From: a virus
Reading direction: 5' to 3' (one strand)
DNA: 51,493 nucleotides
IMG/VR virus record: IMGVR_UViG_3300035070_002473
Coordinates: 1 to 51,493 of that record
The translations under genes and the position numbers were made by a program. Numbering within the stretch: the first letter of the stretch is position 1; each line of letters begins with the position of its first letter. A model generated the notes under the pieces. It was not told the origin of the DNA. It searched no databases and saw nothing but the letters and a program-made list of their open reading frames with translations. Below, in pieces: positions 3,607-47,739 of the stretch.

Positions 3607-4277
3607 TCATAAACTCCAGCAGTGCTAAGTTGTCCAGCAGTGTAAGGAACAGTATGCCATACCTTTAGATTGTTTACTTTGAAGTGATAGTTTAGTTCCC
3701 AATCTATTGATGTGCATATGGTAGTGAAGGTGGATAAAACTTTTTTCGCAGCTTCCTTTGTTATGATATAAGATGAAGTGCAGTTAGTCGCTGGGTGGTC
3801 AACTAATATAAAGTCTTTGTATTTCGCAGCCACTCTGCTGGCTACTAAGTTGTGGTCAAAACCTCCACCAAAGAATATAGCATCCCATTTGGCTCCCTTG
3901 ATTTGTTTAGTATAATTTTCAATTCCTTTTTTGTCTATGTTGAGAACTACATCATCTTCTAGAAAAACTCCATAGTCAAAATCTGAAGCCACTAAGTCTT
4001 CCATGCACTTGATATGTTTGATACACAAGGAAATGCCACCCAAAGTCACTCCTTGATAACCCTCGTAATCCACCTCTGGATACATCCCAGATGTCCTCTC
4101 CTTAAACTTAGATAAATCAGGGGTATAATACTGCCCCAAAATTTCATCATTTAATTCGTCCTTATCATAGTCAAGATACCAGACAGGATCAATGCCAGTT
4201 TGTTCTAGCAAAGGGATCAGATTAGCTTTTCGCTGCTCATTTTTCTTGTAGTGCATTACATAAAATTGTGTTTTCAT
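3594..4277 (-). CDS. GT25-family glycosyltransferase
   Basis: 227 residues, ATG at 4277 in an ATGA overlap with the gene upstream. The N-terminus (FYVMHYKKNEQRKANL) matches the opening of GT25/LPS galactosyltransferases. FLEDDV near residue 107 supplies the acidic metal and nucleotide-sugar binding motif, and a downstream helix region (SSYIITKEAAKKVL) is also typical. These enzymes add galactose or glucose to LPS-type glycans. It is a full-length family member. Confidence 0.85.
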   Translation of the reverse strand: MKTQFYVMHYKKNEQRKANLIPLLEQTGIDPVWYLDYDKDELNDEILGQYYTPDLSKFKERTSGMYPEVDYEGYQGVTLGGISLCIKHIKCMEDLVASDFDYGVFLEDDVVLNIDKKGIENYTKQIKGAKWDAIFFGGGFDHNLVASRVAAKYKDFILVDHPATNCTSSYIITKEAAKKVLSTFTTICTSIDWELNYHFKVNNLKVWHTVPYTAGQLSTAGVYECTL

Positions 4278-38420: not shown

Positions 38421-39332
38421 TTACCACATTCTGCAAGACCAGTACCGAGCTTTCCATTTTGGGCCCGGAGCTGTATCACATTTGTGTCTTGCTCTAAAAC
38501 TTCTTCTTCTTTCAGGGTTATCCCTTTTAATTTCCATATTAGGATCGCCAAATCTAACAATAACAACTTTACCAGATCCATTCTTAGTATAAACTGCAAA
38601 TTTCTTTGGCCCATCAGGGGTTCTAAAAGGCTTATTTAAAGTGACTTTTCTACCTTGATATTCTGCCGCTTTGGACTTTCTTGGATGTCCTTTTGGAAGA
38701 AGGTCATTATCCTGCGTGTATCCAGAATTAGAAGGTTTACCAGTTCTGAGTAATGTCAAAAAGGCATTTACTCTAGCCATAGCCCATCCATCTCTAGACA
38801 TTTTTGGCGCATGACTTGTTGAGTAGGCTCCAGCCCCTCTACGATACACAGCTTTAAGCATACCAAGAGTTGCTTTTGATCCTTTGCCTTTAGCATTATG
38901 CTCTTTCACTTTCTTAGACAGTCTTTCGGTGGTCTTTTTACTAAAAGTGATTTTACCACTTGGGTTCTTTGCACTATCAGGCTTGTTTCTTTTTGAGCCT
39001 CTCTTCTGATCTTTTTTTGGTGCGGGAGTTCTACGGGGATCTCTAGGGCCCGGTTTGTCAGACTGAGCTTTCTTAAGCTCCTCTTGACTAGGACGACCTT
39101 CTTTTTCAGTGCGAGCAGGACGGTAGCTATCTCCTTCTCTCTGCTTTTTCCTCCTAATATTTTCCCAAAGTCCGGGCTTAGCTTGTGAAACATCCCATTC
39201 TTCAGTATCTTCACCAAAATCTACATACTCAGCTTCAGCAGGAATATAAAAGTTTTCCTCTGTAAGATCTTCTGTATATCCAGTTTCATTTAAGTACTCA
39301 TTAAATGCGCTTGCGTAATCTTCTTTTTTCAT
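38421..39332 (-). CDS. DUF5872/DUF5824-like phage protein, very basic
   Basis: 303 residues from ATG at 39332 (TAATG with DUF1501 copy 3). The N-half has AKPGLWENIRRKK (DUF5872-like) then a Lys/Pro/Arg-rich linker. The middle RRGAGAYSTSHAPKMSRDGW with ARVNAFLTLL and the end RFGDPNMEIKRDNPERRRSF, then KWKARYWSCRMW, match DUF5824-like sequences seen widely in phages and giant viruses. It is probably virion-associated and DNA-binding by charge. Precise role unknown. Confidence 0.7.
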   Translation of the reverse strand: MKKEDYASAFNEYLNETGYTEDLTEENFYIPAEAEYVDFGEDTEEWDVSQAKPGLWENIRRKKQREGDSYRPARTEKEGRPSQEELKKAQSDKPGPRDPRRTPAPKKDQKRGSKRNKPDSAKNPSGKITFSKKTTERLSKKVKEHNAKGKGSKATLGMLKAVYRRGAGAYSTSHAPKMSRDGWAMARVNAFLTLLRTGKPSNSGYTQDNDLLPKGHPRKSKAAEYQGRKVTLNKPFRTPDGPKKFAVYTKNGSGKVVIVRFGDPNMEIKRDNPERRRSFRARHKCDTAPGPKWKARYWSCRMW

Positions 39333-40588
39333 TATAATATTACCTTTCCTTCACCTTCTAGCAGGTATCTTGGTCTGCCAGAGTTATCAACTCTCTGTGT
39401 GCCTTTATCTATTCCAAAATGATCAAATAGGGTTGCCTGTAAATCCAAAGGCCCAACAGGTCTTTCTGTAGGACTGTAAGATCTATCAGCCTCTCCGATG
39501 GTTCTTCCTGCTGCATACTCTCCACCGAACATAAACATCGGCGTGATTGATGGCCAGTGGTCACGACCGGCATTTGCATTAATTTTAGTTCTTCCAAATT
39601 CGCCAGTTACTACCAATAATACTTTATCACCTAAACCTCTATCGGACACATCCTGTATAAAGCCTGCAATAGCTTTATCGACAGGAGGCACTCTTGTCTT
39701 TAGGGCATTTGATACATTGCTATGCATGTCCCATCCGCCATAATGAAGCGTAACAAATCTTGTTCCGTATTCTACAAGACGACGAGCAAGAAGAAGTTGT
39801 TCACCAATATCTTTTGCTTTAGTTGACCCATAGAGAGCTTTTGTTTTTTCATTCTCTTTTTCTACTGCAAATGCGTCTTTTGCAGATCCTAATATTACAT
39901 CGTATGCTTGCCCCTTGTAAAAGTCTACTGAGTTGGCGCTTCTGCTTGCGACTGCGGCGGCATCAAGTCCTTTGAGCAGGTCTTTTCTTGTAGAGAATCT
40001 ATCAAGTTCGACTCTTGGGGTAAGGTTGTCTTTATTGGATGGATCGAAAGGTTTATATGCTCCACCGAGCCAAGCACCTTCATCACCTTCGATTTTACCT
40101 TGCTTAACATATGTTGGTACTCCATTTTCTTGGTTGTTAGCTCCATAACATGCAGATACAATAGATCCGAATGAGGGGTACTTTGCCATAGAAGTGGTGG
40201 TTCTTTCTGGATTATACTGTCCGGTCATCATAAAATGAGTCCCTTGTCTATGAGAGGAATCTCTGTGACTAAAGGAATTTACCACATTCATTTTGCCGGT
40301 ATGTTTAGCTAGTTCTGTCCAGTCAGCACCTAAATTTATGTTCGTTTTAACATCATAAATAGAACCGTTTACTGCTTGCCATTCGGTAGGCACAGTGTCT
40401 GTAGGAGCGTGAAATGTTTCAAACTGTGTTGGCCCTCCTCCAAGCCATAACCAAACAACTGCCTTATCTTCATATGCATCAAAACCTTCTTGAGAAAACG
40501 CTTTGTCGGAAAGTCCGATAGAACTCATAGCTGCGCTGATGCCACCTACCCTTAAAAAGTTTCTTCGATTGAAAATAAAGTCTAACAT
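39332..40588 (-). CDS. DUF1501 protein with Tat signal, copy 3
   Basis: 418 residues; AAGGAG 7-8 bases before ATG at 40588. Tat-like N-terminus (NRRNFLRVGGISAAMSSIGL). Blocks: WLWLGGGPTQFETFHAP, DSSHRQGTHFMMTGQYNP, GGWDMH, GEFGRTKINANAGRDHWPSI (one Pro missing from the usual RTP). Divergent from the other two copies, so not a recent tandem duplicate. Coupled to the DUF5824-like gene. Confidence 0.88.
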   Translation of the reverse strand: MLDFIFNRRNFLRVGGISAAMSSIGLSDKAFSQEGFDAYEDKAVVWLWLGGGPTQFETFHAPTDTVPTEWQAVNGSIYDVKTNINLGADWTELAKHTGKMNVVNSFSHRDSSHRQGTHFMMTGQYNPERTTTSMAKYPSFGSIVSACYGANNQENGVPTYVKQGKIEGDEGAWLGGAYKPFDPSNKDNLTPRVELDRFSTRKDLLKGLDAAAVASRSANSVDFYKGQAYDVILGSAKDAFAVEKENEKTKALYGSTKAKDIGEQLLLARRLVEYGTRFVTLHYGGWDMHSNVSNALKTRVPPVDKAIAGFIQDVSDRGLGDKVLLVVTGEFGRTKINANAGRDHWPSITPMFMFGGEYAAGRTIGEADRSYSPTERPVGPLDLQATLFDHFGIDKGTQRVDNSGRPRYLLEGEGKVIL

Positions 40589-41638: not shown

Positions 41639-42646
41639 TTAAAAGTCGTCAACTAAATTTCCTACAGAATACTCAGTGACTCTAGTCTCGAAAAAGTTCT
41701 TGCATTTTTCCAGATCAATGATCTCGCTCATCCAAGGAAATGGGTTCTGTGCATTTCCATAAGGTGATGGTAAATTTAAATTGGTTAATCTTCTGTCAGC
41801 AATAAACTGAACATAATCAATAAACATATCTGCGTTTAATCCTAAGATACCATTTGGTAGAACATCTCTAGCATATGCTAACTCTAGCTCCATAGCTGTA
41901 TCAATATGCTCGATGGTTTCTTTTTCCATTGCTTTTGTCCAGATCTTAGGATTGTCTTCTCTCAATCTATTAATAAGAGTTGTCCCAAAGTTGATGTGGA
42001 TACTCTCATCACGAAGTGTGTATTGAATTTGCTCTCCAATTCCCGGCAGTTTGTTTTGCCTATTAAATGAAAGGAGCATAGCAAAGCCAGAGAAGAAGAA
42101 AATCCCTTCACAGATAACATAATAAGTAATAATATTACGAAGGAATTCCCTTTTCCCCTCCAGCGTATTTATATTAAAATCAGGGCGATTGATGTCAGTT
42201 GTAATGTTCATCAAGAACTCGTCTTTGGCCTTGATACTCGGAATTGAATTATATGCCTGATAAACTTCATCAATATCTAAGTTCAAAGAGTCACAAACAT
42301 AAACCACAGTAAGGTTGTGGAGGCTTTCCTCATATGCTTGACGCAGAATATATTGGCGACATTCTGGATCTGTTACAAACTTGAATACACTGAGAAGCAA
42401 GTTATTGGCAACCAAAGATTCTGATCCAGCAAAGAACCCTAAGCATCTCTTCACAACTAATCTTTCATCTTCGGATAGAGAGTTAGATTTCCACTGTTCA
42501 ATGTCTTTTGCCATAGAGACCTCTGTAGGCATCCAATTGTTAGCGGCTCCGTCGATGAATAAATCCCATGCCCATTTGTTTGTATGCGGCAAGATTTGAT
42601 TCACAGTGGCTACTTTATCTGATATAATTTCTTTGCTTTTTTTCAT
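41639..42646 (-). CDS. nrdB: Ribonucleotide reductase small subunit, class Ic-like
   Basis: 335 residues from ATG at 42646 (TAATG with nrdA). Di-metal ligands E76, E107, H110, E180, E214 and H217 are in the standard pattern. E76 replaces the usual Asp of class Ia, and position 114, where the radical Tyr belongs, is Val. The region SESLVANN...PECRQYILRQAYEESLH closely resembles Chlamydia R2c, which uses Glu and a non-Tyr residue with a Mn/Fe centre. It works with NrdA to make dNDPs. Confidence 0.93.
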   Translation of the reverse strand: MKKSKEIISDKVATVNQILPHTNKWAWDLFIDGAANNWMPTEVSMAKDIEQWKSNSLSEDERLVVKRCLGFFAGSESLVANNLLLSVFKFVTDPECRQYILRQAYEESLHNLTVVYVCDSLNLDIDEVYQAYNSIPSIKAKDEFLMNITTDINRPDFNINTLEGKREFLRNIITYYVICEGIFFFSGFAMLLSFNRQNKLPGIGEQIQYTLRDESIHINFGTTLINRLREDNPKIWTKAMEKETIEHIDTAMELELAYARDVLPNGILGLNADMFIDYVQFIADRRLTNLNLPSPYGNAQNPFPWMSEIIDLEKCKNFFETRVTEYSVGNLVDDF

Positions 42647-45096
42647 TATTGACAACTCTCACATCCGGGATCTAAAATAGAACATGCCTTAATTTCTTCT
42701 GCTTGTGGCTCTTCGGTTGACTTAAAACTAACAGTTGATTTCTCAACGCGAGTGGCGGCTTTGCCTCTCAAGTAATATGTAGTTTTTAATCCGTTTTCCC
42801 AAGCACAAAAATATAAGTCATTCAAAAACTTAAGACTGTCATGTTTGTTGTAAAGATTAAGCGATTGTCCCATATCAATCCACTTCTGTCTTTCAGCCGC
42901 AGCCTTAATTAAAATTTCTGGTTCAATATCAAAAGCAGTAATAAACTCTCTCTGAATATCTTCATCCAGATCAACCGCCATAACGTCTCCGTCAGCAGTT
43001 TTTAGAGCATCTACTAGCTCTTGACACCAAATACCCTTCTTCTTAGCCATTGCAACAAAATGTTCATTGACCATAGTAAACTCTCCACTGAGTGTTGAGT
43101 ACACATAAAGAACCGAGTAATCTGGCTCAATAGACTGCGAACAACCCTGAATATATGAGATGGTTGCGGTAGGAGCGATTGCCATGACATTACTATTACG
43201 CATACCATGTTTTCTCACTAATTCCCTAACCTCATCCCATTCTTCTACAAAGTTCTCGAAGTCCTCTTTCTTATACACATTATCTGACCTGTGAGTCTCT
43301 CTCTGATTCATTAAATCACAATAAGTATCTATAGGAAAATTACCTTTATCCCATTCGGAACCCTCAAAAGAGGGGTATGCGCCTTTTTCCTTAGCTAATA
43401 ATGCTGACGTTTTGATCGCATGTAAAGAAATAAATTCTTGTATTTTCCCGCACAGTATGACTGCATCTTGAGAATTATACGGTATTCCTAGCTTGTGTAA
43501 CACATCATGAGTACCCATAATACCAAGCCCTACAGGTCTGTGTTTCAGGTTTGACTTTTTGGCTTCTTTTGTAGGGTAGAAGTTTAGATTTACAACATTG
43601 TCTAAGCCTCTAACTGCCACCTCTACGGTTTTCTGTAGCTTTTTCCAATCAATAGTTCTAACTTTTAAGTGCGATGATAGATTGATACTGGCGAGATTAC
43701 AGACTGCTGTTTCACCTACCTCGACAATTTCACCTTCTTCATAAACTGTAGGTTTGGTGTGCAGTAAAATCTCAGTACACAGATTAGAAGAATGGACTAC
43801 ACCCTCATGTTTATTAGAATATCTTATATTAGATGGGTCTTTAAAGGTGATCCAAGGATGTCCAGTTTCATAAAGCGCAGTAAGAACTTTCTTCCAAAGG
43901 TCTTTAGCATTAATAGTTCTATAATTATTTATTTCTCCATTGTCTGCGGCTTTCTTATATTTTCTATAAACCTTAGTAAACTCTTTGCCGTAGGTATCGT
44001 GTAACTCTGGACATTCTGCTGGATCAAACAAATACCAATCTTGGTTTTTTGTGACAGCTACCATAAAGTCATCTGGAATCCATAAGGCAGTATTCATGTC
44101 GTGACAACGACGGCGATCATCTCCAGTATTTTTTCTAAGGTCTAAGAAGTCTTCAATGTCTAAATGCCAAGGTTCAATATAAGAACATCCAGCACCTTTT
44201 CTTTTTCCTCCTTGATTGACCGCCACTAATAAGTCATTGAATATTTTTAACCAAGGAACAAGGCCTGTAGACTTTCCATTTGTGCCTTTTATGTAGCCGC
44301 CTGTAGCTCTTACGCTAGACCAATCAACACCAAGCCCTCCAGCATATTTCGACAATCTAGACTGTCCATGTAACGTACCAAAGATGCCATCAATTGAATC
44401 TCCCACTGTACTCAAATAGCAAGAAGAAAGCTGAGACCGTTTTGTCCCACTGTTAAACAGTGTAGGAGTAGATGGAGAATATCTAAACTCTGACATCATA
44501 TTATATATTTCGAGAGCCTTCTCTTCTTTATTATCCCCCTCTGCAAGACATAGACCCATAGCTACTCGCATATAAAATGCTTGAGGGGTTTCCATTCTCT
44601 GTTCATTTAGGTGGATAAAATAGCGATCATAGAGGGTTTGGATGCCCAAGTATTTGAATAGTTTGTCCCTTGATGGAACCATATTCTCAGCTAGGTAATC
44701 AAGATCATAAGAAAGGAGTCTATCACTGAGCCTCTCTTCTTTTACTAACCTTTTGATGTTTTTCACAAAAGCTTTTTTGTACTGCTCTTCAAAATTTTCA
44801 CTACCTACGTCTTCGCCAAACACCTCTTTATAAAGATTGTTAAGTAGCATCCTCGCAGCTACATAAGCATAGTTTGGTTCTTTTTCTATCTTAGAGCGAG
44901 CAGATAATATCAGCGCCTTGTTTATTTCTGATGTTGGTATCTTATTGTAGAGTTGCAAACTAGCATCAAGAACTACTTCGCTCACAGAAACATCTTCAAG
45001 TTCATTACAAGCCCTTTCAACGCACTCATTTATCTTGTCTAAACAAACATCTTCTAGTCTACCGTTGCGTTTTTTAATTTTTATATCTTGGCTCAT
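42646..45096 (-). CDS. nrdA: Ribonucleotide reductase large subunit, class I
   Basis: 816 residues from ATG at 45096 (a TTG 18 bases earlier is less likely). N-terminal ATP-cone (KKRNGRLEDVCLDKINECVE), then SGTKRSQLSSCYLSTVGDSI, the active-site HSSNLCTEILL, and a C-terminal CESCQ tail with the redox cysteines. Reduces ribonucleoside diphosphates. Expression is probably controlled by the promoter and leader RNA at 45131-45299. Confidence 0.95.
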   Translation of the reverse strand: MSQDIKIKKRNGRLEDVCLDKINECVERACNELEDVSVSEVVLDASLQLYNKIPTSEINKALILSARSKIEKEPNYAYVAARMLLNNLYKEVFGEDVGSENFEEQYKKAFVKNIKRLVKEERLSDRLLSYDLDYLAENMVPSRDKLFKYLGIQTLYDRYFIHLNEQRMETPQAFYMRVAMGLCLAEGDNKEEKALEIYNMMSEFRYSPSTPTLFNSGTKRSQLSSCYLSTVGDSIDGIFGTLHGQSRLSKYAGGLGVDWSSVRATGGYIKGTNGKSTGLVPWLKIFNDLLVAVNQGGKRKGAGCSYIEPWHLDIEDFLDLRKNTGDDRRRCHDMNTALWIPDDFMVAVTKNQDWYLFDPAECPELHDTYGKEFTKVYRKYKKAADNGEINNYRTINAKDLWKKVLTALYETGHPWITFKDPSNIRYSNKHEGVVHSSNLCTEILLHTKPTVYEEGEIVEVGETAVCNLASINLSSHLKVRTIDWKKLQKTVEVAVRGLDNVVNLNFYPTKEAKKSNLKHRPVGLGIMGTHDVLHKLGIPYNSQDAVILCGKIQEFISLHAIKTSALLAKEKGAYPSFEGSEWDKGNFPIDTYCDLMNQRETHRSDNVYKKEDFENFVEEWDEVRELVRKHGMRNSNVMAIAPTATISYIQGCSQSIEPDYSVLYVYSTLSGEFTMVNEHFVAMAKKKGIWCQELVDALKTADGDVMAVDLDEDIQREFITAFDIEPEILIKAAAERQKWIDMGQSLNLYNKHDSLKFLNDLYFCAWENGLKTTYYLRGKAATRVEKSTVSFKSTEEPQAEEIKACSILDPGCESCQ

Positions 45097-45130: not shown

Positions 45131-45265
45131 ATAAAAAAAACGACACTTATAACATACAGAGATAGGAACTTGTCTACTCTAAGTTTATCCCTGTGCCTTT
45201 CGGCTTGTCGGGGTAAGTGTCGTTTAGCCTGTTTTCCAAAACTGGCTTTTTATTCCCCAACGACT
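45131..45265 (-). ncRNA. Structured nrd leader RNA, riboswitch- or attenuator-like
   Basis: Predicted transcript from about 45265. In order 5'-3': GUCGUU (45264-45259); a GC-capped hairpin (45247-45226); AAACGACACUUA (45225-45214); a CCC/GGG stem enclosing GCC-GAAA-GGC (45204-45195); an AGAGUAG/CUA-U-CUCU hairpin; and UAAGUGUCGUUU (45149-45138) followed by eight U. The 12-base repeat closes a three-way-junction-like fold and doubles as a terminator. GUCGUU can also pair with AACGAC in that repeat, and UAAGUGU can pair with ACACUUA at 45130-45124, giving alternatives. Not matched to any known family by eye. Confidence 0.65.
45133..45225 (-). terminator. Terminator-like stem of the nrd leader
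   Basis: Twelve-base perfect inverted repeat (AAACGACACTTA at 45225-45214 and TAAGTGTCGTTT at 45149-45138, minus strand) followed by a T-run (45140-45133). The loop of 64 bases is itself structured. It would stop transcription before nrdA unless an alternative pairing forms; it could also be the 3' end of an independent small RNA. Confidence 0.6.
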
Positions 45266-45270
45266 GTTAA

Positions 45271-45299
45271 ATTATAGTGTTCGTTGAGCGGATTTGCAA
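45271..45299 (-). promoter_or_regulatory. Sigma70-type promoter for nrd leader and nrdAB
   Basis: TTGCAA (45299-45294), a spacer of exactly 17 bases, and a perfect TATAAT (45276-45271) on the minus strand. A start near 45265-45264 would begin the leader RNA. It is the best host-type promoter match in the window, just after the stop of the upstream gene. Confidence 0.75.
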
Positions 45300-45833: not shown

Positions 45834-45866
45834 AAAAAAAATAAGGGGAGGGAAACCCCTCCCCTT
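45834..45866 (-). terminator. Strong rho-independent terminator
   Basis: A ten-base perfect stem (AAGGGGAGGG / CCCTCCCCTT) with a GTTT loop is followed by eight T (minus strand), 20 bases after the stop at 45886. It would end transcription of the structural-protein gene efficiently. Confidence 0.9.
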
Positions 45867-46630: not shown

Positions 46631-47269
46631 CTATATATTACACAAATTGTCAAGTATTTTATATGATTTTATTCTGATTCCATAGATATTTGATTTATAA
46701 AAAATATCATAATGATCTTGGCTTAGTATTGGAGAACAGCTAACAACAGGCATATCTATCTGGTCTTCTATTGTTTTGCAACATATTATATTATCTACAA
46801 TGTCATCTACCATTGTTCCTGTTCCAATAACTATCTCGGAAGAATTGTTGGATTTCAGGCAATAACACAAGTCCATTACAAATGACCAGTCAGAAACCCT
46901 GTATTCTATTACAGGACGAAGAGAGATGTCATATTCACTACAAGCAGAAGCACAAGACTTGAAGTCTTTTCTTATACTAGCTAAATTAGATGCTTCTAAA
47001 TCATTTCTATTTATAACTAAGTCAATGCTTTTGGCTCCTCTTCTTTTTGCTAATATTATATCGTGTATTCTCACGTTTGTGTCGGATATACCGTATGGGT
47101 AATCCACAATAGCAGAAAAGTTCAGATGCTCCTTTATTAGCGATTCATCAATTCTAGATAGTAGCCCTGACGGAGTGCAGATCGTATCTACTTTGCTGTT
47201 TGCAGAATTAAATATACACTCCAGAACGGAGCTGTAATTAGCTTCGTTACACAAGACTTCTAATTTCAT
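46631..47269 (-). CDS. DeoC/DERA-like protein without catalytic lysines
   Basis: 212 residues. TICTPSGLLSRIDESLIKEH, VDYPYGISDTNVRIHDI and RGAKSIDLVINRNDL follow the deoxyribose-phosphate aldolase barrel, including the Asp of the DLVIN strand. The positions of the Schiff-base lysine and proton relay (IKTSTG and VKPAGG in DERA) read IVIGTGT and YGIRIKSY, so both lysines are absent. It may bind a sugar phosphate or catalyse another reaction; an inactive relative is also possible. Confidence 0.7.
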   Translation of the reverse strand: MKLEVLCNEANYSSVLECIFNSANSKVDTICTPSGLLSRIDESLIKEHLNFSAIVDYPYGISDTNVRIHDIILAKRRGAKSIDLVINRNDLEASNLASIRKDFKSCASACSEYDISLRPVIEYRVSDWSFVMDLCYCLKSNNSSEIVIGTGTMVDDIVDNIICCKTIEDQIDMPVVSCSPILSQDHYDIFYKSNIYGIRIKSYKILDNLCNI

Positions 47270-47739
47270 TAGTCATTGTCCTCAAATATCGCTAGTGCGC
47301 TGTTGACGGCTCTACGTGCAGTCTCTCTACTGTAACCGTTCTTCTCTCCAATCTCGACCATGGTCATTCTGTCGAGGTAGCGTTGCTTTAGAATCTTCTT
47401 CTGGTCTTCATTGAGGTCTGAGAGCAGGACTTCAATGTTTTCTTTTGGAGTGTGGCAGATGTCAAACGGTATGCCATTCTTCTCTCTTCTTCTAATTCTA
47501 AGCTGGTTCATCATCGCATAGTTGAGTTGTTGATACAGAAAGGTTGTAAATTTAACACCTCTAGTTTCATCAAAAGAGTTCAGGCACTTCCACAATACTT
47601 CTAGCCTTAAAGATGAGATGTCATCTGGGTCAACACTTTTACAATATTTTGCGCAAACAGAATCCATAATTTTTTTGTAATCAATATTTTCTAAAGCTTC
47701 GTTTAGATCTCTAGTCTTCAATTTAAGATACTTCTTCAT
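47269..47739 (-). CDS. Sigma70-family-like transcription factor
   Basis: 156 residues. Region 2: DDISSLRLEVLWKCLNSFDE followed by TRGVKFTTFLYQQLNYAMMN, and region 4 HTH at the end (QRYLDRMTMVEIGEKNGYSR followed by ETARRAVNSAL). It resembles small sigma factors. It may steer RNA polymerase to late promoters of the structural genes that follow. Overlaps the previous gene by 17 bases. Confidence 0.8.
   Translation of the reverse strand: MKKYLKLKTRDLNEALENIDYKKIMDSVCAKYCKSVDPDDISSLRLEVLWKCLNSFDETRGVKFTTFLYQQLNYAMMNQLRIRRREKNGIPFDICHTPKENIEVLLSDLNEDQKKILKQRYLDRMTMVEIGEKNGYSRETARRAVNSALAIFEDND

Follow-up and report, generated by a model that had tools for sequence, protein, structure and literature searches.

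A candidate pseudoknotted leader RNA of ribonucleotide reductase operons in uncultured marine phages

Does the RNA that starts from a strong promoter just ahead of the ribonucleotide reductase (RNR) genes of this phage control those genes, and if so how? Few metabolic genes are commoner in marine phages than those of RNR, the enzyme that supplies DNA precursors. An earlier note on the window (the whole stretch of viral DNA analyzed, 51,493 nt) had proposed a TTGCAA-17-TATAAT promoter, an RNA of about 135 bases and a 12-base stem followed by a U-run acting as a terminator before nrdAB. All of these are present, and the RNA had been correctly placed. The parts of the locus are:

45271–45299, minus strand: sigma-70-type promoter, with −35 TTGCAA at 45299–45294, a 17-nt gap and −10 TATAAT at 45276–45271 (from the sequence)
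45131–45266, minus strand: structured RNA of about 135 nt, from the promoter-proximal end to the U-run (match of covariance model R1 at 45132–45266)
45255–45261, minus strand: 5′ strand of P1, GUUGGGG, part of the pseudoknot (covaries with 45207–45213 across the family; present in the nascent fold)
45248–45254, minus strand: J1/2, an A-rich joining strand with consensus AUAAARARC (kept in nearly all groups)
45226–45247, minus strand: P2 hairpin, AGCC ... GGCU (folding; pairs kept in the family despite changes on both sides)
45214–45225, minus strand: 5′ strand of P3 (P3a), AAACGACACUUA (sequence; P3 covariation in 49 sequences)
45207–45213, minus strand: 3′ strand of P1 (P1b), CCCCGAC (alignment, covariation)
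45195–45204, minus strand: GCC-GAAA-GGC hairpin, subgroup-specific (folding)
45156–45194, minus strand: P5 hairpin (folding; covariation of the corresponding helix in group B)
45138–45149, minus strand: 3′ strand of P3 (P3b), UAAGUGUCGUUU (alignment, covariation)
45133–45140, minus strand: U8 run, forming an intrinsic terminator with P3 (sequence)
42646–45096, minus strand: nrdA, large chain of class I RNR, with ATP cone (Pfam PF02867, PF00317, PF03477)
41639–42655, minus strand: nrdB, small chain (Pfam PF00268)

The RNA presumably starts near 45266–45263, and the ATG of nrdA lies 41 nt past P3. The 12-bp P3 and its U8 run have the make-up of an intrinsic terminator or attenuator, i.e., a G+C-containing stem and a U-run ahead of the start of nrdA. 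A search for tRNA and tmRNA genes found none, and the idea of an origin of replication received no support, the GC skew being uniform across the region. Further upstream, a strong terminator (AAGGGGAGGGG-TTTC-CCCTCCCCTT plus a T-run, 45843–45866, minus strand) directly follows a 224-aa open reading frame, so that the stretch holding the small ORF, the RNA and nrdAB may be isolated from upstream transcription. A phage-encoded sigma-70-like factor, with regions 2 and 4 recognized by Pfam, lies upstream, separated from the RNA by a few genes (47269–47739, minus strand); despite this nearby gene, the RNA's own promoter resembles the host sigma-70 type.

Folded on its own, the window RNA has a predicted energy of −37.0 kcal/mol against −26.8 ± 3.6 for shuffled sequences (z −2.8, 1 of 200 shuffles as good), a signal that is modest when taken alone. 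Both the GAAA-capped hairpin and the second hairpin described inside the closing stem appear in this predicted fold. The three-way-junction layout deduced from them is incomplete, because the core of the RNA is a pseudoknot whose first helix, P1, had been missed. P1 (GUUGGGG with CCCCGAC) was revealed by aligning relatives, and its 3′ strand comes directly after the 5′ strand of P3. Because P3a sits between P2 and P1b, P1 and P3 together make an H-type pseudoknot, and as read from the aligned sequences P3 is both the terminator stem and the second stem of this predicted pseudoknot. The GAAA hairpin is found in L003, L004, L005, L007 and L008 and is absent from group B; on these sequences it is confined to the window's own subgroup.

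The strand pairs of P1 have been rewritten repeatedly among the relatives: besides GTTGGGG/CCCCGAC we find CGGGGAG/TTCCCCG, TCGGAGAG/TTCTCCGG, CTTGTTGGGTT/AACTCAACAAG, TATCTGGAGAA/TTCTCTAGATA, AACCAGAG/CTCTGGTT, GATCAGAG/CTCTGATC, AGACTAAAG/CTTTAGTCT and GTGCTAGG/CCTAGCAC. To count such changes we used a sequence-only alignment of 20 relatives (A2), which leaves out the window and groups C and D. In this alignment 93.5% of the cells of P1, P3 and P5 are paired and 14 pairs show two-sided changes; the covariation score is 0.324 against 0.156 after shuffling, a value reached by 0 of 500 shuffles, and slid controls pair in at most 47% of cells. Covariation in P1 was counted on group B alone; the joint MAFFT alignment of groups A and B misplaces a gap in P1.

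A covariance model, R1, was then built from the same 20 sequences, i.e., without the window or its near relatives. It recovers the window copy at 45266–45132 on the minus strand with E = 1.1e-5, and it matches the group C copies with E values between 1e-8 and 1e-2. P3, which was left unpaired in R1, still has 97.9% paired cells in a 49-row alignment, with two-sided changes in five pairs, and its sequence is almost invariant among the relatives; the compensatory changes in the 12-base stem that the earlier note had named as support are seen in related phages. The counts for P1 and P2 in the 49-row alignment are less independent, because both helices were fitted to the model. That this is a conserved RNA structure, and that it defines a family, is near certain.

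The same RNA stands ahead of nrdA in many marine phage contigs, found through relatives of NrdA in IMG/VR. The viral contigs of IMG/VR were also scanned four times independently of RNR, using only the RNA's own letters, in patterns that included either the U-run or the context GCTARA; an initial loose pattern, whose matches were mostly chance inverted repeats, was superseded by these stricter ones. The four scans gave 63 loci with 52 distinct sequences. The J1/2 consensus recurs in nearly all groups, a U-run follows P3 in 42 of the 50 RNR-linked distinct RNAs, and a TATA-type box, mostly GTGTATAAT where the window has TATAAT, lies equally far from P1 in the relatives. R1 searches of 50 whole contigs gave at most one strong copy per viral record and no convincing second copy elsewhere. 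When 257 Gb of contigs from bacteria and archaea were scanned with the pattern, 27 matches came up; none scored as a family member (best R1 E = 0.03), and by eye they look like chance, mostly coding or repeat sequence. No host or prophage copy was found in these contigs. Comparing the window, group B and group C RNAs with 50,697 phage records by blastn gave chance matches or none, and no copy turned up among phage isolates. Rfam 15 at gathering thresholds had no match for the window RNA or for 11 relatives from several groups, and permissive scans with the window and L213 RNAs gave only sub-threshold matches to unrelated families. This is a previously undescribed RNA family of uncultured marine phages, unmatched in Rfam.

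The association with RNR extends far beyond the genome in which it was first noticed. Specifically, 50 of the 52 distinct RNAs are followed, 16–613 nt downstream and in the same orientation, by a gene for RNR. This gene is an nrdA like that of the window in 36 cases, class II nrdJ in 13, and in one case an nrdA of a distant lineage, at only 28% identity, the class II call being based on the B12-dependent RNR insertion domain in Pfam. In the remaining two, L220 and L350, the match is a chance one that falls within a reading frame, and neither has a comparable P1 or promoter; the four RNR-independent scans found no copy away from RNR operons. Upstream, the neighbours vary: ORFs of 67 and 99 aa in group A, an ORF of 62–64 aa in group B, a dCMP deaminase before nrdJ and a zinc-ribbon-like ORF in group C. 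A dCMP deaminase was also considered for the group B upstream gene and ruled out, a different small ORF being found there. Since these neighbours differ among groups, shared gene order alone does not explain the linkage. Much of the gene order is nevertheless common to these phages (deoC, DUF1501), so that the 50 cases should not be counted as independent of one another. RNR is the constant neighbour, and the linkage to it is strong: 50 of the 52 sequences place a conserved structured RNA in the leader position, reading in the same direction as the RNR gene, as a leader of the riboswitch kind would.

Three observations concern the genes around the RNA. A gene for a DUF1501 protein repeatedly adjoins the RNR genes, whether class I or class II (window 39332–40588, minus strand; L222; group C loci). 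In L213 the nrdJ that follows the RNA is split into two frames (154 + 496 aa), where close relatives have a single ORF, from a sequencing error or a real break. L347 carries a RecA-like ORF of 678 aa (+6164 to +8200 after the start of P3a) whose Walker-A region seems to be interrupted by an intein-like stretch, KDQPLYSTVYTMDGPKRMGEIRIGDTV.

Our best reading of these layouts is that the RNA probably acts in cis, as a leader at which the transcription of phage RNR operons is attenuated. The RNR start lies at most 65 nt from P3 in 31 of the 50 RNR-linked RNAs (16–65 nt in groups A and B), which leaves little room for another promoter, so that in these phages RNR must be reached by read-through. 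Relatives whose P3 lacks a U-run usually have a separate terminator downstream; in L347/L351, L055 and L254 it ends just before the ribosome site of RNR. L238 has no terminator at all, and its RNA is plainly the 5′ UTR of nrdJ. In relatives that lack the RNA (L283, L287, L289, L300 and L316) the GTGTATAAT promoter stands directly before nrdJ, which argues that this type of promoter serves RNR, and it is rare elsewhere in the loci inspected. The RNA-less nrdJ leaders (the same loci with L288–L290) keep a GTGTATAAT-type promoter and have a 5′ end that resembles P1a-J1/2. One stretch of L287, UUUGUUGUU, could pair with GACGACAAG immediately ahead of the start codon, and L289 and L300 show partial compensation; this may be a short element of translational control or what is left after a deletion.

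The main rival is a free-standing gene, equipped with its own promoter and terminator, for a small RNA that acts in trans. It would be carried in a nucleotide-metabolism cassette for co-timing with RNR and be aimed at some other host or phage RNA or protein. It owes this rank to relatives in which a further terminator and an apparent promoter are present. In about a dozen group C relatives (L013, L014, L017 and L043 among them) the RNA is separated from nrdA by a second terminator, a perfect one, and by GGTACAATTGAAATAGTTACAA, a conserved block that resembles a promoter, and the RNA is fully conserved there all the same, which suggests a role that needs no read-through. A promoter-like box at nearly every copy, the one or two terminators in which nearly all copies end and the almost invariant sequence of P3 would fit such a gene, as would the two other genes before nrdJ in L218 and L301 and the single small ORF in L222. 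In L218 a thermonuclease-like ORF (+113 to +550 after the start of P3a) and an ORF of 53 aa have been placed in the interval from the RNA to nrdJ. Yet a trans-acting RNA would be expected to occur independently of a particular downstream gene, and in our scans all 50 copies sit at RNR operons even though the RNR type and the upstream genes change. The little space that groups A and B leave for RNR to have a promoter of its own, the terminator-free L238 and the lack of a convincing second copy in whole contigs point the same way. Overall we consider an independent small RNA rather unlikely, the group C layout being what keeps it in contention. One further variant, which speaks against the attenuation reading, is seen in L007, L008, L009 and L011 (about 3835–3970), where the 5′ strand of P3 has decayed and P3b, the U-run, P1 and P2 are retained; the −10 region of these copies, AACGATACTTATAAT, is nearly perfectly complementary to P3b, and a weaker form of this complementarity occurs in other group A members.

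A leader that senses nothing is an improbable alternative. The pseudoknot and terminator would then fix a low level of read-through, protect the 5′ end of the mRNA, keep transcription from upstream out of RNR or bring in an antitermination complex. No conserved alternative fold was found, P1 lies at the extreme 5′ end and the terminators are kept in different forms, all of which would suit such a role; a plain terminator or hairpin, on the other hand, would have no need for P1 and P3 to interlock in a conserved core, or for the joining strands to be conserved as well. Finally, the idea of an intergenic stretch that carries an ordinary terminator and folds by chance, which the single-sequence z of only −2.8 might have allowed, can practically be dismissed given the held-out model matches and the exclusive linkage to RNR, and the compensatory changes in three helices already refute it.

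How might an attenuation leader of this shape work? The strong promoter starts the RNA, whose 5′ end, judging from sequence and covariation, forms P1 around P2. Folding the nascent window RNA to the end of P1b indeed predicts P1 around P2 at −14.7 kcal/mol, and nascent folds predict P1 in most of 22 relatives. Because P1 is favoured in the nascent RNA, P3a would wait inside the loop that P1 closes, and the terminator has to pass through this loop in order to form: the emerging P3b would pair with P3a through it, completing the H-type pseudoknot and the terminator at once. Most polymerases would then stop at the P3/U-run and release a short RNA, and RNR would be made by read-through only, the RNA acting as a cis attenuator. 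Control is likely to fall on whether P3 threads the P1/P2/J1-2 loop in time, an outcome that a ligand or protein could set at the conserved A-rich J1/2 and the near-invariant P3.

This differs from the switch imagined earlier, in which the terminator strands would pair instead with GUCGUU at the 5′ end or with ACACUUA just after the U-run. Both pairings exist in the letters of the window and both are absent from the close relatives L004 and L005; moreover, the GUCGUU/AACGAC pairing, at −11.0 kcal/mol, loses to P1 in the nascent RNA. An antiterminator between P2a and P3b, noticed by eye, is possible in groups B and C and absent in group A. No mutually exclusive antiterminator is conserved across groups, and since P1 and P3 are also sterically compatible, a two-state switch is not visible from the sequence. 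Ligand sensing by the RNA is possible. Because it serves both class I and class II enzymes, a signal of nucleotide or dNTP supply would fit better than a cofactor of one class such as adenosylcobalamin. We therefore offer only tentatively, as a somewhat doubtful extension of the attenuation reading, that this may be a new class of marine-phage riboswitch, in which a pseudoknot with the terminator as its second stem would sense a nucleotide or dNTP signal and gate RNR of either class.

In broader terms, the RNA is likely to be a control switch for the supply of DNA precursors during infection. Its staying before RNR while class I and class II enzymes are exchanged would point to a shared signal, e.g., the deoxynucleotide pool, and sensing of that pool, if true, would be of a ligand type still almost unrepresented among riboswitches; the 2′-deoxyguanosine riboswitch is the near exception. 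The structure is already backed by covariation, and at about 135 nt the RNA is small enough for direct functional work.

An open-access literature search for a phage RNR leader RNA found none named, and we know of no phage RNA described as a controller of RNR. The adenosylcobalamin riboswitch precedes bacterial RNR genes and controls their expression as a leader RNA. The RNR-leader RNA matches no cobalamin family, and it also stands before genes of class I RNR, an enzyme that works without this cofactor. For the shape of the RNA a comparison is offered by crcB, whose aptamer contains a pseudoknot. The crcB RNA lies next to or overlaps an intrinsic terminator (PMC2864571), whereas in the RNR-leader RNA the terminator stem would itself be a stem of the pseudoknot, and there is no sequence relation between the two. 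The nrdJ motif, reported in Streptomyces by Rfam search (PMC8388888), implies by its name an association with class II RNR, as holds for part of the RNR-leader RNA loci. It was matched neither at gathering score in the RNA-bearing loci nor at E ≤ 10 in the class II locus L213, and unlike it the RNR-leader RNA is phage-borne and also precedes class I genes. A glutamine (glnA-type) riboswitch occurs in marine phages such as Melnitz (PMC9004378); it too is phage-borne and marine, but its gene is ssrA, and we found no Rfam match or shared sequence. Parallels in setting are the manA and wcaG motifs (RF01745 and RF01761), structured RNAs of marine metagenomes and cyanophages that lie in potential 5′ UTRs and are riboswitch candidates, the targets of manA including nucleotide-synthesis genes (PMC2864571). 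Like them, the RNR-leader RNA is a structured RNA of marine phages in a potential 5′ UTR and a riboswitch candidate; but they precede several kinds of gene, whereas the RNR-leader RNA, which has no Rfam match, is found before RNR operons only.
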